Source: a virus
DNA length: 20,675 nt
IMG/VR virus record: IMGVR_UViG_3300042154_001251
Coordinates: 1-20,675 of that record
Strand: one strand, 5' to 3'
Shown here piece after piece: positions 6,610 through 20,675 of this stretch (positions are counted from its first letter, which is position 1; each line of letters begins with the position of its first letter). Both the position numbers and the translations under genes were made by a program. The notes under the pieces are model-generated. The model did not search any database, had not been told where the DNA came from, and saw only the letters and a list, made by a program, of their open reading frames with translations.

Positions 6610-6897
6610 ATGGAAGAAAAGAAGAAGAATGGAGGCGCAAGAACAGGTGCGGGAAGACCTACAAAAGTAGATGAATTAAAAGCTAATGCTATATTCATTA
6701 ACGCACTTAAAGTCCTTTACAAGCAAGATTTAGACGACGACAATAAAGTGGCATTTGTAGTAGATTTATTAGATTCACAACGAGGGCAAATCTTCGTGGC
6801 GGAACATATATTTGGTAAGCCAAAAGAGACAGTTGAAACTACATTGAATGTTAACGATTTTAATATAAAGGACTACTTCAAAATTGGTAACGATTAA
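6610..6897 (+). CDS. terminase small subunit (putative)
   Basis: The product has 95 residues. It starts with a Lys/Gly-rich segment ending GARTGAGRPTKVDELKA, the hallmark N-terminus of many phage small terminases and their DNA-binding regions. A helical body (INALKVLYKQ, FVVDLLDSQRGQIFVAEHIFG) and KPKETVETTLNVN follow. This protein should recognise the phage packaging site and hand DNA to the large subunit. It is shorter than many small terminases (usually over 120 residues), possibly keeping only the DNA-binding and oligomerisation parts. The large subunit begins 14 bases before its stop codon, which supports the call. Confidence 0.75.
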   Translation: MEEKKKNGGARTGAGRPTKVDELKANAIFINALKVLYKQDLDDDNKVAFVVDLLDSQRGQIFVAEHIFGKPKETVETTLNVNDFNIKDYFKIGND

Positions 6898-8089
6898 CGA
6901 TAAATATTTTAACTTAGGTTCGGATTCAAGATACTTTATAATTACGGGCGGTAGAGGTAGTTCAAAGTCTTTTAGTATAACTACATTCCTTAGTTTGCTC
7001 ACAAGGGAATCAGGACATATTATTTTATTTACACGTTACACATTAGTATCGGCTGCAATAAGTATTATTCCCGAGTTTATAGAGAAAATCGAACTACTTG
7101 GAATGGCTAACGATTTCGCAGTTACAAAGGATGAGATTATAAACGTTAAGACTGGCAGCAAGATAATCTTTAAAGGAATTAAAACAAGTAGCGGAACACA
7201 AACTGCAAACCTTAAATCGTTACAAGGTGTCACTACTTGGGTACTTGACGAGGCGGAAGAATTAACAGACGAAGATACATTCGATAAAATTGATTTATCC
7301 ATACGACATAAGACAAAACAGAATAGGGTTATACTTATTCTAAATCCTGCTACCAAAGAGCATTTTATTTACCAACGATTCTTTGAGGGTAAAGGAATTG
7401 AGGGTGGTTCGAATACGATTAAAGGGGATACAACGTACATACATACAACCTATTTTGATAATATACACAACCTATCGGAGTCTTTTCTATCGCAAATAGA
7501 AACGATTAAAGAAAGGAGACCGGATAAGTATCAGCATCAAATTCTTGGGGGTTGGTTGAATCGTGCCGAGGGTGTGATTTTCAGCAATTGGACAATAGGC
7601 AAATTCAAAGATGTTGGAAGCGTTGTATATGGACAAGATTTTGGATTTAGCGCAGACCCTACAACATTAGTAGCGACATCAATTGATTCGGTTAATAAAG
7701 TTATTTACCTGAAATTACACCTATACCAAACTGGCTTAACGACATCTGATATTTATAGGCTTAATAAATCCATTGCAAATGACTGCCTAATTGTAGCTGA
7801 TTCAGCAGAACCACGTTTGATAAACGAACTGCGAGATAAAGGTCTTAATATAATGGAGGCGATTAAAGGTCAAGGAAGTGTAACGTATGGAATTAGTTTA
7901 CTGCAAGATTACGACTTGATAGTTGATGAGGATTCGATAGATTTGATTAAAGAATTAAACAACTATTCTTGGCTTGAACGTAAAAGTAAAACACCAATCG
8001 ATAAACATAACCACGCACTCGATGCCATTAGATACGCAGTAGGTTACCAACTTGATAATCCATTCCATAAACAATACCACATAAGATGA
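6884..8089 (+). CDS. terminase large subunit
   Basis: This 401-residue protein is the packaging motor and nuclease. The ATPase half has Walker A GGRGSSKS (residues 22-29), Walker B WVLDEAEE with D122/E123, and coupling motif ILNPAT with N154. The nuclease half has YGQDFGFSADPT with D252, VADSAEP with D306, and HNHALDAIRYAV with D380. It resembles the PBSX/XtmB type. No in-frame ATG lies between the upstream stop codon and Walker A; the next in-frame Met is residue 74, which would destroy the motor. Initiation at TTG 6884, inside the small-terminase gene, is therefore the best reading. Length fits the family. The stop codon overlaps the next ATG (ATGA). Confidence 0.95.
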   Translation: MVTINDKYFNLGSDSRYFIITGGRGSSKSFSITTFLSLLTRESGHIILFTRYTLVSAAISIIPEFIEKIELLGMANDFAVTKDEIINVKTGSKIIFKGIKTSSGTQTANLKSLQGVTTWVLDEAEELTDEDTFDKIDLSIRHKTKQNRVILILNPATKEHFIYQRFFEGKGIEGGSNTIKGDTTYIHTTYFDNIHNLSESFLSQIETIKERRPDKYQHQILGGWLNRAEGVIFSNWTIGKFKDVGSVVYGQDFGFSADPTTLVATSIDSVNKVIYLKLHLYQTGLTTSDIYRLNKSIANDCLIVADSAEPRLINELRDKGLNIMEAIKGQGSVTYGISLLQDYDLIVDEDSIDLIKELNNYSWLERKSKTPIDKHNHALDAIRYAVGYQLDNPFHKQYHIR

Positions 8090-8259
8090 CAGATGACTTA
8101 CCACATATGAAACGAGTAGTTGAGCAGTATATATTTGATAAGAAAGGAATATGGATAACTATAATATTCGATGACCTTATGAGAATGCATTTACATTTCA
8201 AAATGTTAGCTGCTGCATACGATGTTGCATTTGCTTACAACAATAAACCTAAAATTTAA
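8086..8259 (+). CDS. small hypothetical protein (57 aa)
   Basis: A 57-codon ORF starts within the large-terminase stop codon (ATGA at 8086-8089) and ends 10 bases before the chaperone gene. The product (MTDDLPHMKRVVEQYIFDKK...) has a central aliphatic segment (GIWITIIFDDLMRMHLHF) and a C-terminal helix. The hydrophobic part is interrupted by acidic residues, so it is not a convincing membrane span. Coupling to its neighbour is the main support. Function unknown. Confidence 0.55.
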   Translation: MTDDLPHMKRVVEQYIFDKKGIWITIIFDDLMRMHLHFKMLAAAYDVAFAYNNKPKI

Positions 8260-8269
8260 TTATAGATAT

Positions 8270-9025
8270 ATGAAGCTCGAATTAATTATACCAACTTCTT
8301 TAAGTGAGATTCCATTAAAGCACTATCAGGACTTCCTGAAGATGCAGAAAAATAGCAACGATGAGGAATTTATCGCACAGAAAATGATTGAAATCTTCTG
8401 CGGCATTGAATTGAAGGACGTAGTTAAGATGAAACTTACTACAATAAACGAATTGATAGTACATTTTGCAGAACTATTTGATACGAAATCTAAATTTCAA
8501 CCTACATTTAAAATCGGAAATCAAGAGTTTGGATTTATAACGAACTTGGAAGACATAACTTTAGGTGAATATGTGGATTTGGAATCGCATTTGAACGATT
8601 GGGAGACATACCACAAAGCAATGGCAGTTATGTATAGACCAGTTACCAAGAATTTTAAAGGTAAATATGAAATTATAGACTATAATCCTAATCCCGATAT
8701 GCAAGAATTAATGAAGTTCGCACCACTTGATATCGTGTTAGCATCTTCGGTTTTTTTTTGGACTTTAGGAAAAGAATTATTGCAGGCTACGATTACTTAT
8801 TTAACTCTACAAGTTCAGATGAACAAGGATTTTCAAGCGACTTTTCAGAGCAAGCTCAATTTGCCAAGCAGTGGGGATGGTATCAATCAATATTTTGCCT
8901 CGCTCAATCAGACATTACAAAGTTTGACATTGTCACCGGATACAAACTTACTCAATGTCTCACATATCTCACCTTTGAAAAGCAGAAAACCGAAATCGAA
9001 CAAAGGCAACTTAACAAGCATTTAA
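8270..9025 (+). CDS. tail assembly chaperone-like protein, 0-frame product (251 aa)
   Basis: The ATG at 8270 follows TAATTATAGATATATG, the recurring start element, and is preferred to an in-frame upstream codon at 8222 that would overlap the previous gene. Residues 1-160 form a conserved-looking domain (SLSEIPLKHYQDFLK, FIAQKMIEIFCGIEL, DITLGEYVDLESHLNDW, MQELMKFAPLDIVL). After a run of nine T (8751-8759, residues V161-F163) the frame continues as a polar, Ser/Gln-rich tail (SSGDGINQYFASLNQTLQSL) of about 88 residues. The -1 frame over the same bases encodes a different, more family-like tail. This recalls lambda G/GT, where a -1 shift makes two tail chaperone forms. Known chaperones act with the tape measure during tail assembly and leave the finished particle. 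Confidence 0.78.
   Translation: MKLELIIPTSLSEIPLKHYQDFLKMQKNSNDEEFIAQKMIEIFCGIELKDVVKMKLTTINELIVHFAELFDTKSKFQPTFKIGNQEFGFITNLEDITLGEYVDLESHLNDWETYHKAMAVMYRPVTKNFKGKYEIIDYNPNPDMQELMKFAPLDIVLASSVFFWTLGKELLQATITYLTLQVQMNKDFQATFQSKLNLPSSGDGINQYFASLNQTLQSLTLSPDTNLLNVSHISPLKSRKPKSNKGNLTSI
8751..8759 (+). other. T9 slip site for -1 frameshifting or transcript slippage
   Basis: Nine T in a row are read GTT TTT TTT TGG in the 0 frame, which contains the slippery heptamer T TTT TTT. A -1 slip moves decoding to TTG GAC TTT AGG at 8758, entering the overlapping frame that ends at 9039. A homopolymer this long could also slip during transcription. No convincing downstream stem-loop was seen. Confidence 0.6.
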
Positions 9026-9039
9026 ATAAAAATAGATGA
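8758..9039 (+). CDS. tail assembly chaperone C-terminal domain in the -1 frame (T-like)
   Basis: This reading frame lacks an ATG near its 5' end and is entered most simply by a -1 slip at the T9 run, giving a fusion of about 256 residues. Its sequence is strongly domain-like: FSEQAQFAKQWGWYQSIFCLAQSDITKFDIVTGYKLTQCLTYLTFEKQKTEIE (key residues W-G-W-Y, D-I-T-K-F, F-E-K). That pattern is familiar from Bacteroidota phage tail-region proteins, which argues for real coding. Its TGA stop codon (9037-9039) overlaps the ATG of the next gene as ATGA, whereas the 0-frame stop lies 10 bases earlier. The alternative is that one frame results from a recent indel in the T run. Confidence 0.7.
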   Translation: MDFRKRIIAGYDYLFNSTSSDEQGFSSDFSEQAQFAKQWGWYQSIFCLAQSDITKFDIVTGYKLTQCLTYLTFEKQKTEIEQRQLNKHLNKNR

Positions 9040-9491
9040 CAAATTATTATAAAGTACTGAACGATTTAAAAGCGCATTTTGATGCTGACGTAATCGTGAA
9101 CACAATAACGGAAGGTGATATATTTAAAGTAGATTTAGGTAAGCAGACTATATTTCCTTTGATTCACATCATGGTAAATTCAGCTAACTTTGAAAGCAAT
9201 GTGGTGCGTTTTAATGTATCTATTATTGCGATGGACATTGTAGATATTTCAAAGTCAGAAGCTACAGATATATTCATAGGAAACGATAATGAGCAGGATG
9301 TTTTACATACACAATTAGCGGTATTAAATCGTGCGTACGAGATGTTGCGTAGAGGTGATATGTACGATGATAATTTTGTGGTAGATGGCAATCCAAGTTG
9401 TGAGCCATTTACAGAAAGATTCGAGAATTTATTAGCAGGATGGACAATGACATTCGATGTATTAGTTCCTAACGAAATGACAATCTGTTAA
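9036..9491 (+). CDS. putative tail terminator / tail completion protein
   Basis: The product has 151 residues with alternating strands and helices: an N-terminal helix (YKVLNDLKAHFDAD), strands around FPLIHIMVNSANFESNVVRFNVSIIAMDIVDI, a helix with HTQLAVLNRAYEMLRR, and a closing strand WTMTFDVLVPNEMTIC. The order (N-terminal helix, DV-type strands, long helix, final TMTFDV strand) fits tail-terminator / neck proteins that cap the tail and join it to the head. The family type is one I associate with flavobacterial phages. It is coupled by ATGA to the -1-frame chaperone domain and lies one base ahead of the gp10-like gene. Fold-based inference. Confidence 0.6.
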   Translation: MTNYYKVLNDLKAHFDADVIVNTITEGDIFKVDLGKQTIFPLIHIMVNSANFESNVVRFNVSIIAMDIVDISKSEATDIFIGNDNEQDVLHTQLAVLNRAYEMLRRGDMYDDNFVVDGNPSCEPFTERFENLLAGWTMTFDVLVPNEMTIC

Positions 9492-9492
9492 A

Positions 9493-10005
9493 ATGACTGA
9501 AACGCAGAAAGCCTTAATTAAGTTTCGTGATACTATAATAAACGAAGCAAAAGCTAACCTAAAATCAATGGGTAAAGATAGCACTGGAAAGTTATCTAAA
9601 TCGATTCAGGGACAAGTTAAGGAAATGCCTAACTCAATCAGTATGTACTTTCAAATGGAAGCGTACGGATATTTTCAGGATAAAGGGGTTTCAGGTATTA
9701 AGAAAAAATACAACACGCCATTTTCTTATACAACCAAAATGCCACCACCAAGTAAGTTGGATAAATGGATTGTAAGGAAAGGTATTGCGCCAAGAGATAA
9801 GAAAGGAAAATTGATGAGCCGTAAAGGACTGCAGTTTGCTATTGCTCGTGGTATATTTATCAACGGAATTAAACCGAGCCTATTTTTTACTAAACCATTT
9901 GAGAAAGCATTTAAGAAACTGCCTGATGTATTGGTGGATAAATACGGATTAGATGCCGAACAATTATTTGATTCAATAATGAAAGAAACACTAACTAAAA
10001 AATGA
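9493..10005 (+). CDS. HK97 gp10-like neck / tail component (putative)
   Basis: The product has 170 residues. The N-terminal helix (ETQKALIKFRDTIINEAKANL) is followed by a small strand region with YFQMEAYGYFQDKGVSG and a basic middle (KKYNTPFSYTTKMPPPSKLDKWIVRKG). The C-terminus has GIKPSLFFTKPFEKAFKKLPD. The AxYxxFxxxG step and the RPFLxPAF-like ending (here KPSLFFTKPF) are typical of the HK97 gp10 group of head-tail joining proteins. It is basic, so it may contact DNA or acidic partners. It is linked to both neighbours by near-zero spacing. Confidence 0.66.
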   Translation: MTETQKALIKFRDTIINEAKANLKSMGKDSTGKLSKSIQGQVKEMPNSISMYFQMEAYGYFQDKGVSGIKKKYNTPFSYTTKMPPPSKLDKWIVRKGIAPRDKKGKLMSRKGLQFAIARGIFINGIKPSLFFTKPFEKAFKKLPDVLVDKYGLDAEQLFDSIMKETLTKK

Positions 10006-11075
10006 GCAATATATTTGTAAAATCACCTTATATAATTGAGGTTAACGAGATAGGACAAACAGGAAGTTATATCCAACTATTTATTTGGAACGCAAACGAT
10101 ACGCAACCAAGCACACCAACTTATCAGCTATCGAAATTAATTCCATCAAGTACGAATTTCCAAACGACTTACGATATATCAGAGTACGTTCGTGAGTACA
10201 TAAAGCACAATGCATTTAATAACGTGTACAATCAAAATAACGCTGCAACTCCTTATTTAGAATATTGCAATGTCGTGGTTAAGCGTTATAAAGTAGTAGT
10301 AGGTACAAAGAATTTAATTGATACAACTACATATAAGGCATTCGATGGCTATGGCTATTATGAACAAGGTTACAATCCTAACTTGGGCGAGTATTTATTA
10401 GACCAAAAAACGTATTACTATAATTACGATTCTACTGCCAATTTAACAACTGACTTTTTAAAACGAGCAGGAAGTTTAACATTAGATGCAACAAGTGGCT
10501 ATAAGATTAAGAGAACGAATTTATCTACATTAGCAACGGATATTTATACTATTACAACAAGTGCGGTTATTGATACATATAGAGTGTTTCCGGGTTGGCT
10601 TGCAGTAGGTAATAAAGTAGAAATTTTAACGGCAGCAGATGCGGTTGTTTGGACTGCAACTTTTAAGCCTAAAACGGAATGCAGATACGAGCCAGTTGTT
10701 GTGGATTTTATTAACCGATACGGGGCATGGCAACGTGAATTTTTCTTCAAAGCATCTAATACTAATATTAACGTTGAAACATCGGAGTACAATTTACTAC
10801 AAACGAATTTAGTTAGTTACTCAAAATTTGAAGGGCAACGAAGAACGTTCAACACCAACGGAAAAGAAACTATTAAATGTAACACCGATTGGGTAAGCGA
10901 GGATTATGCAGAAACAATTAAGCAATTGATGTTATCGGATAGGATTTTAGTTAACGATAGACCGGCTAAAATGAATACAAAAAGTACGGAGTTATTCAAA
11001 TCAATTAATACCAAAATGATTAATTACGAAATGACATTTGACATTGCAAACGATATAATTAATTCTGTAGTTTAA
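10002..11075 (+). CDS. tail structural protein of unknown detail (357 aa)
   Basis: The product is a beta-rich protein of 357 residues, starting with a SPYIIEVNEIGQTGSYIQLFIW strand set and continuing with many short aromatic strands. It has no signal peptide, membrane span or enzyme motif. It overlaps the preceding gene by 4 bases (ATGA) and the next by one base (TAATG), so it belongs to a tightly coupled tail block with the 773-residue protein. The beta content, Tyr/Asn/Thr richness and position before the tape measure suggest a virion component of the tail or its tip. I do not recognise a named family. Confidence 0.68.
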   Translation: MSNIFVKSPYIIEVNEIGQTGSYIQLFIWNANDTQPSTPTYQLSKLIPSSTNFQTTYDISEYVREYIKHNAFNNVYNQNNAATPYLEYCNVVVKRYKVVVGTKNLIDTTTYKAFDGYGYYEQGYNPNLGEYLLDQKTYYYNYDSTANLTTDFLKRAGSLTLDATSGYKIKRTNLSTLATDIYTITTSAVIDTYRVFPGWLAVGNKVEILTAADAVVWTATFKPKTECRYEPVVVDFINRYGAWQREFFFKASNTNINVETSEYNLLQTNLVSYSKFEGQRRTFNTNGKETIKCNTDWVSEDYAETIKQLMLSDRILVNDRPAKMNTKSTELFKSINTKMINYEMTFDIANDIINSVV

Positions 11076-13396
11076 TGAGAGATGTACAAATTTATATTGA
11101 AGGCAAACGATTAGAATTATTCAACGATGAAAAGATTGAGATAAATTCATCCGTACAAAATATTCAGGATATCGCAAAGGTATTTACGGATTTTAGCCAA
11201 TCATTTACAGTTCCAGCATCGACTGTAAACAATCAAATATTTCAGCACTTTTATCAATCGGATGTTAACGCAACTATCGACCATCAGATTAGACGAGACG
11301 CAAAGATTGAAATTGACTTAACTAATTTTAGAACGGGTAAGATTCAAATAGAAAAATCTAATCTAAAAAATGGTAGTGTTGAAAGTTACACATTGACATT
11401 CTACGGAGACATCGTTACGCTTTTTGATTTGATAGGTGACGAGAAAATGAATACGTTGGATTTGTCTGCCTATTCACATTTATATACGGGTAGCGAAGTA
11501 CAAAGTAGAGTTACAAGTACGGCAGATTTAGATGTGCGTTATCCTTTAGTATCTTCATTACGTGCATGGGAGAATTCAGGAGGTGGAGTGAATGACATTA
11601 CGCAAACTGCACACGCAATTGCATATACCGAACTATTTCCTGCAATAAAAATTAGTAGATTATTTCAAGCAATAGAGACAAAATACGACATTGATTTTCA
11701 AGGGTTATTCTTAACCGATAAAAGATTTACCGAGTGTTTCATGCACTTGAAAAATAAAGCAGAATTTAAATTTAGAACTGCATTTCAAAGGGTGGATTTA
11801 GTTACTACATCACCTACAAACGATTACTTTGATTTAGTAGAAGATTCGTTGCATATACAATACATAGACCCTGCGATTGCTGCGGTAGATGCTAATACAC
11901 AATCACATCAAATTACAATTGCAATTTCTTACGTTTCAAATTCAGCTATAAATTATTACATTGATATTTTTGAAAATGGAATTTATCAAACTACAATTAC
12001 GGATTTAGGATTAAATAGTTATTTAGTTTTAGATTACGTGAACGAGCCTGGTTTAGATAAGAAAATCACGCTAAATATATCTTCGGATTTTCCTTTAACT
12101 ATGAAGGTAAATATGCAATATCAACAATCTTATTATATAGAAGACGCATACGGAAATCCTTCAATATTGCAACAAAGATTATTTATTGGATATGGTACAA
12201 ACCAATCTTTAATCGGAACGGTAGATTTATCCGCCGTTATGCCGGACATGAAAATAGCTGATTTCATTACGGGCATACTTAAGAAATTCAATCTTACTTG
12301 TTACGGACTTACACCTTATTCATTCCAAGTTGAGCCATTGGAAGATTGGTATAAGAAAGGCAGAATATTGAATATAACACCTTATACTGACATTGATTCT
12401 GTAGATATTGAGCGCATAAAAGTATACAAAGAGATTGCATTTACGCATGAAGTATCTCAATCCGTTACTAATGTAGAATTTTACGATACATTTGGAAGGC
12501 AATATGGAGACTTGCAACAAAGTTATAACTACGAGTCAAGCGAATATCAGGTTAAAGTGCCATTTGAAAACCTATTATTCAACAAATTTACCGGTACAAA
12601 TTTACAAGTAGGTTATTATTTAGATAAAAGTTTAGTTCCATACATTCCGAAGCCTTCTTTAATGTATATTGAGGAAGCTAAAACGTGCAGTTTTAAGTTT
12701 GATAATGGCTCAACTGTTCCAACATTAACAAGTTATAGACCATTCGGGCAGGATTTAACCTATAATAACTTCAAATGGTCACTAAATTTCGGTGCTGATA
12801 TTTCAACTTTGTATAATGTAGTAAATCCAAATAGCATTTATAGCGTATATTATTCAGGTTATTTAAACAACTTGTACGCACGTAAAAATAGAATGTATAC
12901 GTACAAAACGAAACTACCAATTTCTATTCTTACAAGCCTTAAATTAAACGATAGGCTAATCATTCGAGATAAGCGGTACATAATAAACGAAATGAAATCC
13001 GAACTTACAAGCGGTGAAGTTACGTTTGTATTGATATTGGATTTTAGGGCAATGAATGCGATTACAACATCTCCAGTGCCTAAACCAAGTGGAACAATTA
13101 CAGTGCCTATATTAATAGGAAATCAAGTCACCAAAATAACTATAGATGTGGGGACTACCGGAGTAACTGCGGATAAATATATTGTAACAACTGACGATAA
13201 AGTTCTATTTACTTATCCTGAAAATACAAGTGATTTCTTTTTAATAGCGGCAGAAGATAGCGCAACAATTACAACCGAAGAATTGATAGCGTTACGAAGC
13301 GAACAAGGAGGAGGAAAAGTATATCCAATTACGCTTACAACAGAATACGAAAATGGAGATTTAATAGATAACACCTTATATATAATTCAAGAATAA
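11075..13396 (+). CDS. large tail / baseplate-like structural protein (773 aa)
   Basis: The N-terminal part (RDVQIYIEGKRLELFNDEKIEINSS, then QNIQDIAKVFTDFSQSFTVPAS) is a pattern I recognise from flavobacterial phage structural genes. The body is beta-rich with repeated DLSAVMPDMKIADFITGILKKFNL-type helices. A phrase ending VTFVLILDFRAMNAI near residue 655 closes it. A Pro-rich linker (SPVPKPSG) then leads to a separate C-terminal module of about 100 residues with its own strands, which may vary between phages. Probably a baseplate or tail-tip protein; named orthologue unknown. TAATG overlaps couple it on both sides. Confidence 0.7.
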   Translation: MRDVQIYIEGKRLELFNDEKIEINSSVQNIQDIAKVFTDFSQSFTVPASTVNNQIFQHFYQSDVNATIDHQIRRDAKIEIDLTNFRTGKIQIEKSNLKNGSVESYTLTFYGDIVTLFDLIGDEKMNTLDLSAYSHLYTGSEVQSRVTSTADLDVRYPLVSSLRAWENSGGGVNDITQTAHAIAYTELFPAIKISRLFQAIETKYDIDFQGLFLTDKRFTECFMHLKNKAEFKFRTAFQRVDLVTTSPTNDYFDLVEDSLHIQYIDPAIAAVDANTQSHQITIAISYVSNSAINYYIDIFENGIYQTTITDLGLNSYLVLDYVNEPGLDKKITLNISSDFPLTMKVNMQYQQSYYIEDAYGNPSILQQRLFIGYGTNQSLIGTVDLSAVMPDMKIADFITGILKKFNLTCYGLTPYSFQVEPLEDWYKKGRILNITPYTDIDSVDIERIKVYKEIAFTHEVSQSVTNVEFYDTFGRQYGDLQQSYNYESSEYQVKVPFENLLFNKFTGTNLQVGYYLDKSLVPYIPKPSLMYIEEAKTCSFKFDNGSTVPTLTSYRPFGQDLTYNNFKWSLNFGADISTLYNVVNPNSIYSVYYSGYLNNLYARKNRMYTYKTKLPISILTSLKLNDRLIIRDKRYIINEMKSELTSGEVTFVLILDFRAMNAITTSPVPKPSGTITVPILIGNQVTKITIDVGTTGVTADKYIVTTDDKVLFTYPENTSDFFLIAAEDSATITTEELIALRSEQGGGKVYPITLTTEYENGDLIDNTLYIIQE

Positions 13397-13575
13397 TGAT
13401 AAAAAATATTATTGCAATGCTTCAAATCGGAGAGCATTTAGGAGTATCGGAGAACATCGAAATAGCGAAAGGAAAGTACAAATTTTCGACATCTATTAAA
13501 GCACATTGGAAACAAGCAAGACGAGAAATAATAATGGCAAAAACTAAAGGCAATGGCGGAAAAGCGGACAATTGA
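13396..13575 (+). CDS. small basic hypothetical protein (59 aa)
   Basis: This ORF starts inside the stop codon of the 773-residue gene (TAATG at 13394-13398) and runs 23 bases into the tape-measure gene in another frame. The product begins with a short hydrophobic helix (IKNIIAMLQIGEHLGV) and becomes very basic (AHWKQARREIIMAKTKGNGGK). It may bind nucleic acid or the tape measure. Overlap coupling supports translation, though the long overlap with the next gene lowers confidence slightly. Confidence 0.52.
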   Translation: MIKNIIAMLQIGEHLGVSENIEIAKGKYKFSTSIKAHWKQARREIIMAKTKGNGGKADN

Positions 13576-15583
13576 ATTAGAAGTAAAAGAATCTGGATTT
13601 AAATCCTTAAAGGCGCAGTTAAGAGAAGCACAAGCTGATGTTGCTGCGTTATCGGATAAGTTCGGGGCGACATCTAAAGAGGCTGCTGCTGCTGCAAAGG
13701 CTGCAGGTATTCTTAAAGATAAAATTGCCGATGCAAAAGACTTAACAGATGCCTTTAATCCGGATGCTAAATTTAATGCATTAAGTGGTTCAATTGGCGG
13801 TGTATTAAATGGATTCCAAGCGTATGAAGGCGCAATGGGTTTAATAGGTGTTGAGTCAGAAAACCTACAGAAAACCTTACTAAAGGTACAATCCGCAATG
13901 GCATTGTCTCAAGGTATACAAGGCGCCTTAGAGGCAAGAGATAAATTTATTGCATTAGGCTCGGTTGTTAAAGATGCGTTTGCGAAAATGACTTCAGCAA
14001 GTAAGGCATTTATGGTTACAGGAATCGGTCTTTTAATTGCCGGAGTTGGTTTACTTGTTGCTAATTGGGAGTCAGTTAGTCAGGCATTAGGAGCGGCAAC
14101 AGATGCACAAAGATTAAATAGCAAGGTTATCGCAGAGGCTACAACTGCCATAAGCAAAGAAGTAAATGCTGCCGATACTTTAAGTAATTCGTTAAAAGAT
14201 GAGACATTAAATCGTGCTGAAAAAGTAAGATTAATAAAGGAATTTCAAGCGGATTATCCGGGATTATTGCGAAATGTTAATTTAGAAAAGGATTCTATTA
14301 AAAGCATTAACGCACAATTAGGCGATAATATAAAACTACTTCAATTACAAGCCGAAGCAAAGGCGCTTGCATCTATTCGTGAAGAAACATACACTAAAAA
14401 ATCACAATTACAATTACAACTTCAAACCGAAGCAATAGAAAATGCAGGCACTGCTACGTTTAATTATGGTGAAAGTGCTGCAAATGGTTTTTTAGGGTTT
14501 AGTACAGGTGCTGAAAATGCAGCAAACGCAACCAAGAAATTAGGTGACTTTCAAAATAGTTCTACTAAATCTTTAGAAAAGCAAATCAAATCCATTGATG
14601 ACTCGGAAAAATCTTTAAATAAAAAGATTGATGCATTAAAGAAAACCGGAGCGGCAACTGGAGAATTAACAGATGCTGAAAAGAAAGCGGAAGAAGAAGC
14701 AGAAAAAGCAAGACAAAAGGCAATCCAACGAGCAGAAGAAAGAGCAGCAAAAAGAAAGGCAGAATTAGAGCAATTAACTCAATTTTTAGCAGCAGCAACA
14801 AAGGCAAATTTAGACGCTATAAAAACAGACCAACAACTTGAACTTGATGCAATATCTGATAAGTATAAGGCGCAAATTGAACTTGCTAAAAAATACAATA
14901 AGGATGCTACACAAATAATTGAAGCACAAAGGAATGAAGAAAATTTAGTAAATACAAAGTACATACAATTAGAACTTGATGCGGAACAATTAAAGCAAGA
15001 CAAACTTAATGAATTAGCCGAAGCGCAAAAAACAAAAGATGCGCAAATTGCAGCAGATAAAGCCGCAGCAGACAAAGCCGCAGCAGATGCTGAAATAGCA
15101 TTAGCAAAATTAACAAGAGACCAAAAAATTGAAGCTGCACAAGCCGTATCTAATACCTTCGCACAATTAGCTAACTTATTAGGTGAACAAACGGCAGCGG
15201 GTAAAGCAGCAGCAATAGCAGCAGCGACAATAGAAACATTTTTATCTGCACAAAAGGCTTATTCTGCAACTGTTGGTATTCCATTTGTAGGTCCGGTATT
15301 AGCACCAATAAATGCGGGTATTGCAATAGCTGCCGGTATTAAAAATATCAAAGCAATTGCATCTGTTAAAACTCCGAATGGTGGGGGTGGTGGTGGAAAT
15401 ATACCAACTGCTCCAAGTGGTGGCGGTGGTGTTACTGCTCCTAACTTTAACATTGTAGGCAATTCAGGAATAAATCAACTCGCTGAACTTGGTGGACAAC
15501 CAATTCAAGCGTATGTAGTAAGTGGTGAGGTTACATCCGCACAAGCATTAGATAGAAATCGAATACAAAATGCAAGTTTTTAA
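13553..15583 (+). CDS. tail tape measure protein
   Basis: The product has 676 residues and the expected architecture. An N-terminal helical segment (KSLKAQLREAQADVAALSDKF) comes first. One hydrophobic, membrane-active stretch lies at about residues 153-170 (FMVTGIGLLIAGVGLLVA). A long charged coiled coil with EEEAEKARQKAIQRAEERAAKRKAE and DKAAADKAAA repeats follows. A second Ala/Ile-rich segment (AAATIETFLSAQKAYSATVGIPFVGP) and a Gly-rich C-terminus complete it. Tape measures set tail length during assembly and leave the tail with the DNA; at roughly 1.5 angstrom per residue this would suit a tail near 100 nm. Chaperone and tail-tube genes fit this call, although both are unusually distant from it. 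Confidence 0.88.
   Translation: MAEKRTIELEVKESGFKSLKAQLREAQADVAALSDKFGATSKEAAAAAKAAGILKDKIADAKDLTDAFNPDAKFNALSGSIGGVLNGFQAYEGAMGLIGVESENLQKTLLKVQSAMALSQGIQGALEARDKFIALGSVVKDAFAKMTSASKAFMVTGIGLLIAGVGLLVANWESVSQALGAATDAQRLNSKVIAEATTAISKEVNAADTLSNSLKDETLNRAEKVRLIKEFQADYPGLLRNVNLEKDSIKSINAQLGDNIKLLQLQAEAKALASIREETYTKKSQLQLQLQTEAIENAGTATFNYGESAANGFLGFSTGAENAANATKKLGDFQNSSTKSLEKQIKSIDDSEKSLNKKIDALKKTGAATGELTDAEKKAEEEAEKARQKAIQRAEERAAKRKAELEQLTQFLAAATKANLDAIKTDQQLELDAISDKYKAQIELAKKYNKDATQIIEAQRNEENLVNTKYIQLELDAEQLKQDKLNELAEAQKTKDAQIAADKAAADKAAADAEIALAKLTRDQKIEAAQAVSNTFAQLANLLGEQTAAGKAAAIAAATIETFLSAQKAYSATVGIPFVGPVLAPINAGIAIAAGIKNIKAIASVKTPNGGGGGGNIPTAPSGGGGVTAPNFNIVGNSGINQLAELGGQPIQAYVVSGEVTSAQALDRNRIQNASF
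15050..15088 (+). repeat. short in-gene tandem repeat (15-bp unit)
   Basis: Two and a half copies of GCAGCAGAYAAAGCC encode AADKA-type pentapeptides in the coiled coil of the tape measure. Copies lie at 15050-15064 and 15065-15079, with a partial one at 15080-15088. Unit gain or loss would change tail length by small steps. Confidence 0.7.
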
Positions 15584-15594
15584 ATTATAGAAAT

Positions 15595-16188
15595 ATGGAG
15601 AAAAGACAATTAATTGAACTAATCATTGACGAGACGAATTTAACGGATGAGGTATTCGCAATTTCGGTTGTAAATAAGCCAGCAATCGAATCTAATTTTA
15701 TTGCTTTATCGGAGCAAGTTGTGGAATTGAAAGTAATTGATGAGGAAAAGAAAGTACTTATGGGTGCTGCATTGATTCCAAATAAGAAAATACCGAGATT
15801 AGACAAAAGCAATAAAGTCTTCGATATTTGGTTTTCAGAGGCTACAATCGAAAAAGCAAGCCAATTGTTCTTAATGCGTAACTATCAAAACGAAGTAACA
15901 ATGGAACATAACCATAAGCTAAAGGATATGTCTGTTGTAGAATCGTGGATTATTGAAGATTCCGAAATGGACAAATCTAAATTGTACGGATTTTCCTTTC
16001 CAAAAGGTACTTGGATGGTCGCTATGAAAGTAGACAATGAAGATGTTTGGAACGATGTTAAAGCAGGTAAGATTAAAGGCTATTCAATCGAGGGAAGATT
16101 TTCCGATAGTATGGATTTGAAAGCAATAGAGGAAGAAAACGAACTAATAGAAAAAATTAAACAAATCTTAAACAATGGCAAAAAATAA
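15595..16188 (+). CDS. XkdF-type prohead serine protease (putative)
   Basis: The product has 197 residues. GAALIPNKKIPRLD (57-70), VFDIWFSEATIEKASQLFL, TMEHNHKL with H105 and H107, VVESWIIED with S117, and YGFSFPKGTWMVAMKV are the landmarks of the XkdF-like capsid maturation proteases. A His plus Ser in this order suits the herpesvirus-type fold of prohead proteases, which trim scaffold and capsid during maturation. The terminal GYSIEGRFSD strand also fits. The neighbours downstream, a scaffold-like gene and the major capsid gene, are the expected substrates. The start follows AAATTATAGAAATATG. Which residues are catalytic is inferred. Confidence 0.85.
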   Translation: MEKRQLIELIIDETNLTDEVFAISVVNKPAIESNFIALSEQVVELKVIDEEKKVLMGAALIPNKKIPRLDKSNKVFDIWFSEATIEKASQLFLMRNYQNEVTMEHNHKLKDMSVVESWIIEDSEMDKSKLYGFSFPKGTWMVAMKVDNEDVWNDVKAGKIKGYSIEGRFSDSMDLKAIEEENELIEKIKQILNNGKK

Positions 16189-16366
16189 GACTTTAAGTAA
16201 GACAAGCCCTAAAGGTGGTAAGCGTGGTTGTTTGTGCGAGAACGGAACATACGATTCTAAATGCTGCGATGGAACACTACAAGCGCAAGGAATTGGAAGC
16301 GGAATAAGCGACACGATAAACAACGTTGTTAGAACAAGTAGCACAAGAGTTATAACAAATAATTAA
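16175..16366 (+). CDS. four-Cys miniprotein (63 aa)
   Basis: The product has 63 residues, basic at the start (MAKNKTLSKTSPKGGKRG) with a compact GCLCENGTYDSKCCDG segment. This gives Cys at 19, 21, 30 and 31, spaced as in a small metal-binding knuckle or disulfide loop. The rest is polar (LQAQGIGSGISDTINN...). It overlaps the protease gene by 14 bases and precedes the scaffold-like gene. Close relatives occur, to my recollection, next to capsid genes in flavobacterial phages. It may be a capsid decoration or assembly factor; unproven. Confidence 0.72.
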   Translation: MAKNKTLSKTSPKGGKRGCLCENGTYDSKCCDGTLQAQGIGSGISDTINNVVRTSSTRVITNN

Positions 16367-16408
16367 GCAAAAACTAAAACAAAATAATAACAATTTAATT
16401 ATACTATT

Positions 16409-16975
16409 ATGAACATTATAAATCAAATTAAAACTTTACTTAATATGGAAGTAAAATTAGAGCAAATGAAGCTCGCTGATGGAATGACAGTATTAGAGGC
16501 TGATTCATTCGCACCTGAAATGGAAGTTTTCGTAGTTACTGAAGACGAGCAAAAGATTCCCGTACCAGTTGGTGAGTACGAAATGGAAGATGGACGTATC
16601 TTGGTTGTAATGACTGAAGGTCTTATTGCTGAAGTTAAGGAAATGGAAGCTGAAGTTGAAGCGCCTGAAGCTGAAGTTGAAGTGGAAGTAGTTGCTGAAG
16701 TTGAAGCGCCATCTGTTTCTGCAACACCAAAAAAGACTATTGAATCTGTAACGAAAGAATCTTTCTTTTCGGAAATCGAAGCACTTAGAGCAGAAATTAC
16801 AGAATTAAAAGCATTAGTAGAAAAATCCAAAGTTGAGGAAGTTGTTGAACTTGCTGAAACTCCAAAACCAATTTCGTTTAATCCTGAAAACACTACACCG
16901 GTAGAGGTAACGAGATATGCAAATGGACGCTCACGTTCTGTAATGGATTCGATATACGAAAAATTAAATAAATAA
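16409..16975 (+). CDS. capsid scaffold-like acidic protein
   Basis: The product has 188 residues. An ordered N-terminal part (ADGMTVLEADSFAPEMEVFVVTEDEQ, then PVPVGEYEMEDGRILVV) resembles a beta domain. An acidic Ala/Glu/Val low-complexity region with AEVEAP repeats follows, then a coiled coil (FFSEIEALRAEITELKALVEKS) and a basic C-terminal tail (RYANGRSRSVMDSIYEKL). Acidic and coiled in the middle with a basic tail just before the capsid gene is typical of scaffolding proteins, which guide capsid assembly and are often removed by the protease. Start element: TAATTATACTATTATG. Confidence 0.62.
   Translation: MNIINQIKTLLNMEVKLEQMKLADGMTVLEADSFAPEMEVFVVTEDEQKIPVPVGEYEMEDGRILVVMTEGLIAEVKEMEAEVEAPEAEVEVEVVAEVEAPSVSATPKKTIESVTKESFFSEIEALRAEITELKALVEKSKVEEVVELAETPKPISFNPENTTPVEVTRYANGRSRSVMDSIYEKLNK
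16649..16710 (+). repeat. direct repeats encoding AEVEAP
   Basis: GCTGAAGTTGAAGCGCC occurs at 16649-16665 and 16694-16710, with a partial copy between. The repeats build the acidic low-complexity part of the scaffold-like protein and are likely to vary in number. Confidence 0.65.
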
Positions 16976-17003
16976 TATAAATAATAAACTAAAAAATTAA
17001 ATT

Positions 17004-17960
17004 ATGCCAACTACAGTTAATGTAAGTACCAGTTATGCTGGTGAGTTCGCAGGGAAATATATCGCTGCTGCCCTATTATCCGCTCCAACTTTAGACAAGA
17101 ATGGAGTTACAATCATTCCTAATGTAAAATACAAGCAAGTTGTTAAGAAAGTAACATCTGATGCTAACTTGATTAAAGATGCTTCATGTGATTTCACGCC
17201 AACCGGAACAGTTTCTTTAACAGAAAGAATTTTGCAACCTAAAGAATTGCAAGTAAATCTTAACCTTTGTAAGACTTCATTTGAGTCAGATTGGTCTGCA
17301 ATCGAAATGGGTTATTCCGCATTCGATGTTCTACCAAAAACATTCGCTGATTTCTTAATCGCACACGTTTCTGAAAAAGTTGCTGCTGCTACTGAAACTT
17401 CAATTTGGACGGGTGTAGGTGCTACTTCAGGACAATTTGCGGGATTTGGTTCAATCGTTTCTACAGATGCTTTATTACCGGCTGCTCAAGAAGTTGCAGG
17501 AACAACTATTACGGCGGCGAATGTGGTTACGGAGCTTGGAAAAATCGTTGATGCGATTCCACAAACAGTTTACGGAAAAGAAGATTTGAAAATCTATGTT
17601 GCTCCAAACATCGCTCGTGCTTACATTCGTGCACTGGGTGGATTCGGAACATCAGGTTTAGGTGGAAACGGAACAGATTCAAAAGGAACACAATGGTATA
17701 CTAACGGAGAATTAATGTTCGACGGAGTTGCATTGTTTGTTGTTAATGGTCTTGCTGCTAATACTGCTATTTGCGCTCAAACTGCTAACTTGTATTTCGG
17801 TACTGGTTTGATGAGTGACTTGACAGAAGTTCAGGTAATTGACACATCGGCTACACTTGGAGACAAGAACGTAAGAGTAATCATGCGTTACCAAGCGGGT
17901 GTACAAATTGGAGCAATTGAAGACGTAGTAACTTATGGAATTCCTAACGCTGCAAACTAA
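17004..17960 (+). CDS. major capsid protein (putative)
   Basis: The product has 318 residues. The N-terminus (STSYAGEFAGKYIAAALLSAPTLDKNGVTIIPNVKYKQVVKKV) and the segments SLTERILQPKELQVNLNLCKTSFESDW, VAAATETSIWTG and DLKIYVAPNIARAYIRAL resemble HK97-fold capsid proteins of flavobacterial phages. The middle and end are beta-rich (VRVIMRYQAGVQIGAIEDVVTYG). It follows the protease and scaffold genes, the usual assembly trio, and is followed by a terminator, as befits a highly expressed gene. Codons here are more biased to GCT, GTT and ACT than in the neighbouring tail genes. Fold is inferred from pattern and context. Confidence 0.82.
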   Translation: MPTTVNVSTSYAGEFAGKYIAAALLSAPTLDKNGVTIIPNVKYKQVVKKVTSDANLIKDASCDFTPTGTVSLTERILQPKELQVNLNLCKTSFESDWSAIEMGYSAFDVLPKTFADFLIAHVSEKVAAATETSIWTGVGATSGQFAGFGSIVSTDALLPAAQEVAGTTITAANVVTELGKIVDAIPQTVYGKEDLKIYVAPNIARAYIRALGGFGTSGLGGNGTDSKGTQWYTNGELMFDGVALFVVNGLAANTAICAQTANLYFGTGLMSDLTEVQVIDTSATLGDKNVRVIMRYQAGVQIGAIEDVVTYGIPNAAN

Positions 17961-17980
17961 TTAACTAATTTATAAACTTT

Positions 17981-18013
17981 AAGGGGGATTGGAGTAGTCC
18001 TTTCCCCTTTTTT
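17981..18013 (+). terminator. intrinsic terminator after the capsid gene
   Basis: AAGGGGGA (17981-17988) pairs with TTCCCCTT (18002-18009) apart from one G-T, around a 13-base loop, and a run of six T follows (18008-18013). Terminators after both this gene and the tail-tube gene would tune levels of the two most abundant virion proteins. The gene after it starts only 14 bases later. Confidence 0.72.
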
Positions 18014-18026
18014 AATACTTAAAAAT

Positions 18027-18602
18027 ATGGCATGTGATGTTACAATGGGAAGACTTGAATCGTGTAAAGATTCTATTTCAGGACTTCTAAATATATATTT
18101 TGCTAATTATGGTGATTTAGCTTCCGAGAATGCTGTTTATGGTTCTGCTGAATTTTCAGACCAAATTGCAACTTGGGATCCTAATGGTGCTTCAGCTTTA
18201 TCTTTGTATAAATACGAACTTAAAGGAGCAAACGGATTTGAGCAAACAATCCAAACTTCAAGAGACAACGGAACTACTTTTTACGAGCAAGTTTTGACTG
18301 TTCAATTGAAGACACAAAATGCTGCTACTACTAAACAAGTTAAATTGCTTGCTGCGGGTAGACCAAGAGTAATCGTAGAAACAAGAAACCACCAATTTTT
18401 TATGGTAGGTTTAGACCAGGGCGCTGACGTTACTGCGGGAACTATTTCTTCAGGTACTGCAATGGGTGATTTTAATGGTTATAGTTTGACATTTACTGCA
18501 ATGGAAAAAATACCGGCTAACTTTATCAATTGTGCAACTCAAACGCAATTGTGTACAGTATTTACAAATGGTGCGTTGCCAGCGGTTGTTATTTCTGCTT
18601 AA
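18027..18602 (+). CDS. major tail tube protein (putative)
   Basis: The product has 191 residues. It opens MACDVTMGRLESCKDSISGL with two Cys and runs as a beta protein with strands such as FYEQVLTVQLKTQ, RPRVIVETRNHQFFMVGLDQGADVT, GDFNGYSLTFTAMEKIPANF and QTQLCTVFTNG. The GYSLTFTAMEKxPANFI ending strand and VGLDQGADVT loop are patterns I associate with tail-tube proteins of flavobacterial phages. Tube subunits hexamerise around the tape measure. It is flanked by a terminator on each side, which fits separate high expression. Its position beside the capsid gene, not beside the tape measure, is odd. Confidence 0.75.
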   Translation: MACDVTMGRLESCKDSISGLLNIYFANYGDLASENAVYGSAEFSDQIATWDPNGASALSLYKYELKGANGFEQTIQTSRDNGTTFYEQVLTVQLKTQNAATTKQVKLLAAGRPRVIVETRNHQFFMVGLDQGADVTAGTISSGTAMGDFNGYSLTFTAMEKIPANFINCATQTQLCTVFTNGALPAVVISA

Positions 18603-18627
18603 CATTTAAAAATACATTTCTCTAATT

Positions 18628-18654
18628 AAGGCGGCTATTATGGTCGCCTTTTTT
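18628..18654 (+). terminator. intrinsic terminator after the tail-tube gene
   Basis: AAGGCGGC (18628-18635) pairs with GTCGCCTT (18643-18650) through eight pairs including one G-T, around a 7-base loop, and a T run to 18654 follows. A classic rho-independent shape. Confidence 0.78.
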
Positions 18655-18696
18655 GATTTACAAAACAAAATAACCAAAAGTTAATTATAGTTATAT

Positions 18697-19032
18697 ATGG
18701 TAATTCTAACAACAGAAAATGTAAATACGCAAAGAATGTACTTCATTCCAAGAAGCGCAACATTTACCAATGTATATATAACGGATGAGCAAACCAATGT
18801 TACAACATCTTTAACCGGTTATGAAGTATCAGACTTTGGATATTACGTTCAATTAAGAGGTGTATTCAACCTGAAAGAAAACCATTTCTACACAATTGAA
18901 ATAAAGAATGGTTCAACAATAATTTTTAGAGATAAGATTTTCTGTACAAACCAAAGTACATCAAGTTTTTCTGTAAATAATGCACAATATACAAGCAACA
19001 ATACAACAAATACATTCATAGTTTATGAGTAA
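18697..19032 (+). CDS. small structural-looking protein (111 aa)
   Basis: The product is beta-rich: VNTQRMYFIPRSATFTNVYITDEQTN, a GYYVQLRGVFNLKENHFYTIEIKNG pair of strands, then a KIFCTNQST turn and a Thr/Asn-rich end (SNNTTNTFIVYE). It has the look of a small immunoglobulin-like or jelly-roll virion protein. The start is preceded by TAATTATAGTTATATATG. The portal gene begins inside its last codons (overlap of 8 bases), so it may be a head-tail connector or decoration. Unrecognised family. Confidence 0.62.
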   Translation: MVILTTENVNTQRMYFIPRSATFTNVYITDEQTNVTTSLTGYEVSDFGYYVQLRGVFNLKENHFYTIEIKNGSTIIFRDKIFCTNQSTSSFSVNNAQYTSNNTTNTFIVYE

Positions 19033-20675
19033 TGTTCACATATTAAATTTAGCGGCTTATTCTACACCTACTATTCAAGAATCAAAGCGAGATGCTTGGG
19101 TTGAATACGGGGAGGATAATAATTATTATCAATTTTTGATAGATAGATACACGAATAGCACAACGAATAACGCAATAATAAACAACATTTCACGCTTAAT
19201 ATACGGGCGTGGTTTAAGTGCGTTAGATGCGTCAAGAAAGCCAAACGAATATGCACAAATGATGTCGCTATTTAACAAGGATTGTGTGCGTAAAATCTGT
19301 ATGGACAGAAAAATGCTTGGACAATTTGCTATTCAGGTGCATTATAATAAAGACCATAGTAAAATCTTAAAGGCTTACCACATACCGACTAACTTAATAC
19401 GTGCAGAAAAGTGCAATGAAGATGGAAATATTGAAGGATATTACTATTCGGATGATTGGACTGACGTAAAGAAATTTAAGCCACAAAGATATTCAGCATT
19501 TGGCACATCAAAAGATGAGGTAGAAATATTATTTTCAAAGCCTTATGCAGTTGGAATGAAATATTATAGCTATCCTGATTATCAAGGTAGCTTGCCGTAT
19601 TCAATGTTGGAAGAAGAAATTGCGGATTACTTGATTAACGATGTAAAGAATGCTTTTAGCGGGCGAATCGTAGTTAATTTTAACAATGGCGTACCAACCG
19701 AAGAGCAACAAGAACAAATTAGTTCGAAGGTAATAAACAAACTTACCGGAGCAAATGGAAATCCAGTAATCGTTGCATTTAATCGTAACGCAGAAAGTAA
19801 AACAACTATTGATTCTATTCCTTTGGACAATGCGCCTGAACATTTCCAATACTTATCTAACGAATGTTTAGGAAAGATAATGTTAGGACATAACGTAACC
19901 TCTCCTTTATTGTTTGGAATTGCAACAACAACCGGTTTTAGTTCAAATGCGGATGAGTTAAAGAATAGTTCAATACTATTCGACAATATGGTTATACGAC
20001 CAATGCAAGAAGAAATATTGGAAGCATTCGATTCTATTTTAGCATACAACGGAATCAGTTTAAAATTGTATTTCAAGACTTTGCAACCTTTAGAATTTAC
20101 AGATTTAGAAAATGCACAAACCGAAGAACAAGTAGCGGAAGAAACGGGTACGGAATTAAGTTCAATTGACGAATTAGACCTATCAGCATTCGGAGAAAAT
20201 GTACCTGAAAATTGGATGCTTATAGATGAAACAGAAGTGGATTACGATTCCGAAGATGAGTTAGATAATGAAATTGAAAGCATAAATAAAAAAACACCTT
20301 CTTTACTTTCTAAAATATACAACTTTGTAAGCACTGGCACTGCATTCCCTCGTTCAAAAAGTGAACAAGATGACGTTGTAAATGATTTTAAATTTATTAC
20401 ACGTTACAAATATAGCGAGGGATTGTCAGTAAATAGTAGAGATTTTTGTAAGTCAATGGTAAATGCTAAAAAGGTTTACAGAAAAGAGGATATATTAAGA
20501 ATGAGCAGCACAGCAGTTAATAAAGGATGGGGTGCTGAAGGTGCTGATACTTATTCTATTTGGTTATACAAAGGTGGCGGAGATTGTCATCACAAATGGA
20601 TTAGACAAACTTTTGTAGCGCTTGGTGCAAATTCAGGAATAGACCCTTTGTCTCCTAAAGCAGTAGAAATATCAG
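19025..20675 (+). CDS. portal protein, partial at 3' end, with C-terminal extension
   Basis: The ATG at 19025 overlaps the preceding stop codon and the frame stays open to the window edge (550 codons). Residues 1 to about 420 look like a portal: INNISRLIYGRG near the start, IPTNLIRAEK, FSKPYAVGMKYYSYPDYQG, the helix NDVKNAFSGRIVVNFNNG, and LMLGHNVTSPLLFGI-like KIMLGHNVTSPLLFGIATT. An acidic stretch follows, then a separate domain with FKFITRYKYSE, SRDFCKSMV, KVYRKEDILRM, GWGAEGADTYSIWLYKGGGDCHHKW (C521, H522, H523). Portals form the dodecameric ring through which DNA enters. The role of the C-terminal domain is unknown. The true stop codon lies beyond the window. Confidence 0.82.
   Translation, partial: MSNVHILNLAAYSTPTIQESKRDAWVEYGEDNNYYQFLIDRYTNSTTNNAIINNISRLIYGRGLSALDASRKPNEYAQMMSLFNKDCVRKICMDRKMLGQFAIQVHYNKDHSKILKAYHIPTNLIRAEKCNEDGNIEGYYYSDDWTDVKKFKPQRYSAFGTSKDEVEILFSKPYAVGMKYYSYPDYQGSLPYSMLEEEIADYLINDVKNAFSGRIVVNFNNGVPTEEQQEQISSKVINKLTGANGNPVIVAFNRNAESKTTIDSIPLDNAPEHFQYLSNECLGKIMLGHNVTSPLLFGIATTTGFSSNADELKNSSILFDNMVIRPMQEEILEAFDSILAYNGISLKLYFKTLQPLEFTDLENAQTEEQVAEETGTELSSIDELDLSAFGENVPENWMLIDETEVDYDSEDELDNEIESINKKTPSLLSKIYNFVSTGTAFPRSKSEQDDVVNDFKFITRYKYSEGLSVNSRDFCKSMVNAKKVYRKEDILRMSSTAVNKGWGAEGADTYSIWLYKGGGDCHHKWIRQTFVALGANSGIDPLSPKAVEIS

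Follow-up and report, generated by a model that had tools for sequence, protein, structure and literature searches.

The window analysed here is a stretch of 20,675 nucleotides of viral DNA, covering positions 1 to 20,675 of IMG/VR record IMGVR_UViG_3300042154_001251. A gene starting with the ATG at 8270 appears to make two proteins, with a common front and two different ends encoded over the same 266 nt. The features of the locus and its surroundings are:

6884 to 8089, plus strand: large terminase gene, upstream (PF04466, E 4.4e-30)
8270 to 9025, plus strand: 0-frame gene (G-like), 251 aa, with an N domain of ~163 aa and an unshifted tail; homologous along its whole length to 50 aligned relatives
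8751 to 8759, plus strand: T9 slip run, with the in-phase heptamer T_TTT_TTT at 8752-8758; T9 in 122 of 122 distinct close relatives
8758 to 9039, plus strand: −1 frame tail (T-like domain, 93 aa), which the shift would join to the N domain in a 256-aa fusion; conserved in all homologues examined
8760 to 9025, plus strand: dual-coded stretch, 266 nt; selection on both frames, strongest in the first ~27 codons
9036 to 9491, plus strand: next gene of the conserved tail module (phrog_30964); its start overlaps the −1 stop
13553 to 15583, plus strand: tape measure protein gene, downstream in the same module (phrog_9483, E 7.5e-11)

The recomputed frames end at 9025 and 9039 and give products of 251 and 256 residues, exactly the end points and nearly equal sizes noted in an earlier reading of this DNA (the sequence-only reading). 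That reading had also seen the −1 stop overlap the next ATG; the TGA occupies 9037-9039 and the ATG 9036-9038, forming ATGA. The T domain carries the motifs R-x-R...W-G-W-Y...L-T-Y-L-T-F-E-K. The slip run is the sole T9 on either strand of the window, compared with ~6 expected from dinucleotide shuffles; long T runs may be avoided elsewhere in the window. The host of these phages is probably a member of the Bacteroidota. By terminase gene the nearest annotated phages are Nonlabens and Olleya phages, and one homologue (L242) sits in a Bacteroidetes genome bin. A contig labelled as a Euryarchaeota genome bin, L243 (PBGL02000003.1), carries the phage gene with T9 and is probably a mis-binned phage contig.

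Relatives were collected in two sets. Two IMG/VR scans, one per product, gave 159 loci; with the window there are 122 distinct complete regions in this close set. All 122 have a T9 run, found in two different phases. The second domain is in the −1 frame wherever both ends are present, and both frames stay open for 68-93 codons past the slip. The wider set (83 records including the Nonlabens phage) came from a profile scan started from the Nonlabens domain and from a genome collection. Its run lengths are T9 in 74 records, T8 in 5 and T10 in 4, with T_TTT_TTT in phase in all of them and the frame relation unchanged. Runs of at least nine A or T are rare otherwise: the 975 kb of these loci contain 200 slip runs and 28 other such runs.

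A T9 run is an error-prone place, and a sequencing or assembly indel in such a homopolymer could split one ordinary gene into two frames. The sequence-only reading held that relatives with T8 or T10 would point to this. Such runs do occur, in 9 of the 83 distant relatives, but the frame relation is kept in each. They therefore represent substitutions at the edges of the run rather than indels, and the proposal of a shared slip site stands. The T9 layout in 122 of 122 distinct relatives comes from many assemblies and recurs in an isolated phage, Nonlabens P12024L, and both frames remain open and constrained. An indel is hardly credible given a layout common to relatives and an isolate, and we reject it.

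Openness of the two frames over this length is not expected by chance. When the codons of the window were resampled with phage codon usage and the −1 protein fixed, the 0 frame was open in 0 of 20,000 resamplings; with the 0-frame protein fixed, the −1 frame was open in 0.025%. Among 51 relatives the median openness probability was 0 for both frames, with maxima of 0.001 (0 frame) and 0.017 (−1 frame). Divided into segments, the median chance probability per sequence was 0.132 for codons 0-24, 0.010 for codons 24-65 and 0.012 from codon 65 to the end. The third frame over the same stretch contains ~10 stops, and in the −1 frame of the single-coded upstream N region stops number 14 per 156 codons on average. 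Selection for openness across the whole 0-frame tail is firmly indicated by these comparisons.

The silent sites of the −1 frame provided insights into whether the 0-frame protein matters as well. In pairs at 50-60% identity, the share of identical four-fold sites is 0.64 for the −1 frame inside the overlap and 0.35 in the single-coded N region. We compared the relatives with a resampling model in which the −1 protein is kept and 0-frame stops are banned. Observed wobble identity was 0.823 against 0.500 in the model for codons 0-27, and 0.665 against 0.475 for codons 27-72. The corresponding 0-frame amino-acid identities were 0.498 against 0.245 and 0.429 against 0.310. The same resampling applied to the N region as a control gave 0.487 observed and 0.464 expected, suggesting that common descent contributes little at this level of divergence. 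The constraint peaks in codons 0-27, 42-54 and 64-72 and rises further at the 3' end (codons 82-95). Relatives with a 0-frame tail of middle length show strong constraint in codons 0-24 and 36-48 and weak constraint outside them, for example in codons 48-66 (0.554 against 0.517). The single-coded 3' end of their T domain is itself above expectation (0.638 against 0.534), so the 0 frame cannot explain all of the far-end conservation. This silent-site conservation lies just ahead of the start of the next gene and possibly reflects the initiation region of that gene.

The rival view is that only the −1 frame matters past the slip, and that the 0-frame tail is an accidental read-through that stays open by chance. 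The sequence-only reading had counted the residues GDGI as a clue to a real 0-frame domain, but the conserved W-G-W-Y of the −1 frame leaves little freedom for these residues, which are therefore not independent evidence. In addition, the 0 frame shows weak conservation in codons 20-42, as it does in codons 48-66 of mid-length relatives, and its end point varies. However, synonymous resampling essentially never gives full openness in the clade of the window, and the −1 wobble sites are conserved far past what stop avoidance requires, most of all in codons 0-27 and 42-54. The 0-frame motif L-G-x-E-L-L-x-A-T-x-x-Y-L is also kept where the −1 frame varies. An accidental tail is therefore improbable. 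Amino-acid selection on the 0 frame is firmly supported for the first part of the tail, and a function of the last 25 codons may be proposed tentatively. The central claim of the sequence-only reading, one N-terminal domain followed by two fully overlapping alternative C-terminal tails set by a slip at the T run, agrees with the relatives, in which the conservation of both frames that it had proposed to look for is present.

The lengths of the 0-frame tail in the relatives suggest how the overlap arose. The −1 domain was found in all homologues examined. Past the slip the 0-frame tail has ~25 codons in the Nonlabens phage and L243, 48-67 codons in most distant relatives and 79-89 codons in the clade of the window (24 rows, support 99/91, one reversal in L101). 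The tree has only a midpoint root, and long branches carry the two short-tailed rows, which makes the direction of growth likely but not proven. Of the two coding layers the T domain is probably the older, and the 0-frame tail likely grew over it. The 0-frame stops would have been lost in steps, lengthening the G tail over the T domain from ~25 to ~60 to ~85 codons. On balance we lean towards a new C-terminal domain born by stepwise overprinting, from ~25 to ~88 codons over the T domain, so that the frameshift selects between two domains of equal size rather than adding one. Overlapping coding is common in viruses. Here short, middle and long versions exist in living relatives, and the growth of a dual-coded domain can be traced stepwise.

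The shift would be a −1 slip on T_TTT_TTT within the T9 run, and we infer both the slipping and its rate. A heptamer of the form X_XXY_YYZ, the pattern of programmed −1 ribosomal frameshifting, is in phase in all sequences. A stimulatory RNA structure was sought downstream and none was found (fold z-score 0.78, without compensatory pairs in 22 sequences); such a structure is not required for a −1 slip and is absent in phage P2 as it is here (PMC3091744). The in-phase heptamer fits tandem ribosomal slipping, and a run length of 8-10 also allows transcriptional slippage, in which the second product would come from transcripts that gained or lost U when RNA polymerase copied the T9 run. The run exceeds the 7 bases needed for ribosomal slipping, and it measures 8-10 bases, mostly exactly 9, in ~205 sequences, even where its phase has moved by one base. 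The failed search for a stimulatory structure points the same way. On the other hand, T_TTT_TTT is in phase everywhere, including all T8 cases, although a T9 run holds one in any phase and its presence there decides little. Conserved residues (V/L before and W/Y/C after) likewise account for the T bases flanking the heptamer. The sequences fit both mechanisms; slippage by the polymerase is a real possibility, at somewhat less than even odds.

Internal initiation could produce the −1 domain as a separate protein rather than a fusion. The first −1 codon in the window is TTG, a possible start, and the annotation of the Nonlabens phage gives the downstream part as a separate gene. But this codon varies (TTG in 81 sequences, TTA in 36, TTT in 5), and there is no conserved internal Met: the first Met falls no earlier than residue 82 or is missing altogether. 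Separate initiation also leaves the invariant T9 unexplained. With a varying start codon and no conserved internal Met, it is very improbable, and slipping at the T run is the preferred origin of the second product.

We modelled the two halves separately, as the 0-frame protein and the −1 tail alone. The 0-frame model has a pLDDT of 79. Its slip position falls inside a long helix (residues 153-184), which is followed by helices 186-195 and 203-219; residues 238-251 of the tail have pLDDT below 50. The −1 tail alone is predicted to be a helical domain with a pLDDT of 71. The 0-frame model had no significant PDB match, and the −1 model had no match among three aligned PDB chains. Matches in BFVD were uncharacterized phage proteins and the Nonlabens homologue, with annotated chaperones at E ~0.5 or worse. 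A weak structural cousin is gp10 of Flavobacterium phage 6H (L247:10050-10927, minus strand), which lies near the tape measure gene. It is followed by an unannotated open −1 frame of ~100 codons, but there is a stop right after its TTTTTTC, and no usable −1 continuation was found at that site.

In the window the terminase gene is followed by the frameshift gene, the genes at 9036, 9493, 10002 and 11075, and the tape measure gene at 13553. The order from the frameshift gene through 9036, 9493 and 10002 to 11075 is conserved in relatives, and in the window it leads on to the tape measure gene. The gene before the frameshift gene is the terminase in some relatives and a small unrecognised gene in others. 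This variation of the upstream neighbour indicates that the place of the gene is at the head of the tail module rather than in a slot beside the tape measure gene; it is not located directly between the major tail protein and tape measure genes, as G/GT genes are. The late-gene order of the window (6884-20674) is odd in other respects, running from the terminase through the tail module with the tape measure gene, a protease, a likely capsid and a likely tail tube to the portal, which comes last and away from the terminase.

We consider it probable that the gene uses programmed −1 frameshifting in the manner of lambda G/GT, giving a 251-aa G-like protein and a 256-aa fusion with a T-like domain. 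Most expression events would read T9 in frame and give the 251-aa protein with its own C-terminal helices past the slip. A minority would slip by −1 on T_TTT_TTT and give the 256-aa protein, with the same N domain and the T-like domain. If the parts act as in lambda, the role of the N domain would be to coat the tape measure protein, and that of the T domain to recruit the major tail protein. Rather than a 'G' and a 'G plus T', the two products would be alternative-tail isoforms of near-equal size.

The sequence-only reading had named the gene a tail chaperone. The frameshift layout and the tail module point to this, and we infer a chaperone function from them; no chaperone model matches, and the gene does not sit beside the tape measure gene. 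Searches of Pfam, NCBIfam and PHROGs found no chaperone model, with phrog_166 'tail protein' reaching only E 0.013, and comparison by sequence or profile gave no match to a known chaperone family. A literature search for Bacteroidetes tail chaperone frameshifts returned the GeneTack survey alone. A frameshift gene of the tail module could have another role, for instance as a neck or scaffold assembly factor, which would suit its position first in the module, four genes ahead of the tape measure gene, and its lack of similarity to known chaperones. However, a −1 fusion gene of such a size in the neighbourhood of a tape measure gene is the hallmark of a tail chaperone (PMC5009743), and the window offers no other candidate between 11075 and the tape measure gene. 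We regard a different role as unlikely.

The general arrangement is that of known systems: as in G/GT genes, a slippery site is combined with an overlapping downstream −1 frame, and both are conserved in relatives. Like the gene in the window, lambda G/GT has one start and a −1 slip near the tape measure gene, and its fusion adds a T domain (PMC5009743). However, lambda has its own slip sequence in place of T9 / T_TTT_TTT, its products are 'short' and 'long' rather than near-equal isoforms with alternative tails, and the window gene has no detectable sequence similarity to it and is not beside the tape measure gene. The P2 E/E+E' gene also makes two tail proteins from one start by a −1 slip on a T run, TTTTTTG (PMC3091744), but it is unrelated in sequence and lies directly ahead of the tape measure gene. 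The main difference is in length, and the dual-coded region is as unusual as the sequence-only reading had thought. The distance from slip to stop is ~18 nt in the lambda record and 20 nt in P2, and the PRFect paper gives averages of 36 nt for the Xu et al. 2004 set and 26 nt for SEA-PHAGES (PMC10885494), compared with 266 nt here. The G/GT-type frameshift device is known, as in those chaperones; what is new is that the alternative ends are wholly superimposed. This questions the view of the unshifted chaperone as the fusion minus its T domain. One of the features that PRFect uses is how close a site lies to the stop codon (PMC10885494). Long dual-coded genes of this kind therefore probably go undetected or are annotated as two genes, as happened in the Nonlabens phages, which is a warning for annotation pipelines and for programs that predict frameshifts.

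Nonlabens phages P12024L/S provide a true homologue in their genes 40 and 41. In alignment the N domain is 27% and the −1 domain 22-36% identical, and the T9, the −1 relation and the place after the terminase gene are as in the window. Unlike in the window, the 0-frame tail stops ~25 codons past the slip, leaving little dual coding. The comparison suggests that genes 40 and 41 of P12024L are one frameshifted gene, annotated at present (L161:6001-6695) as two hypothetical proteins.
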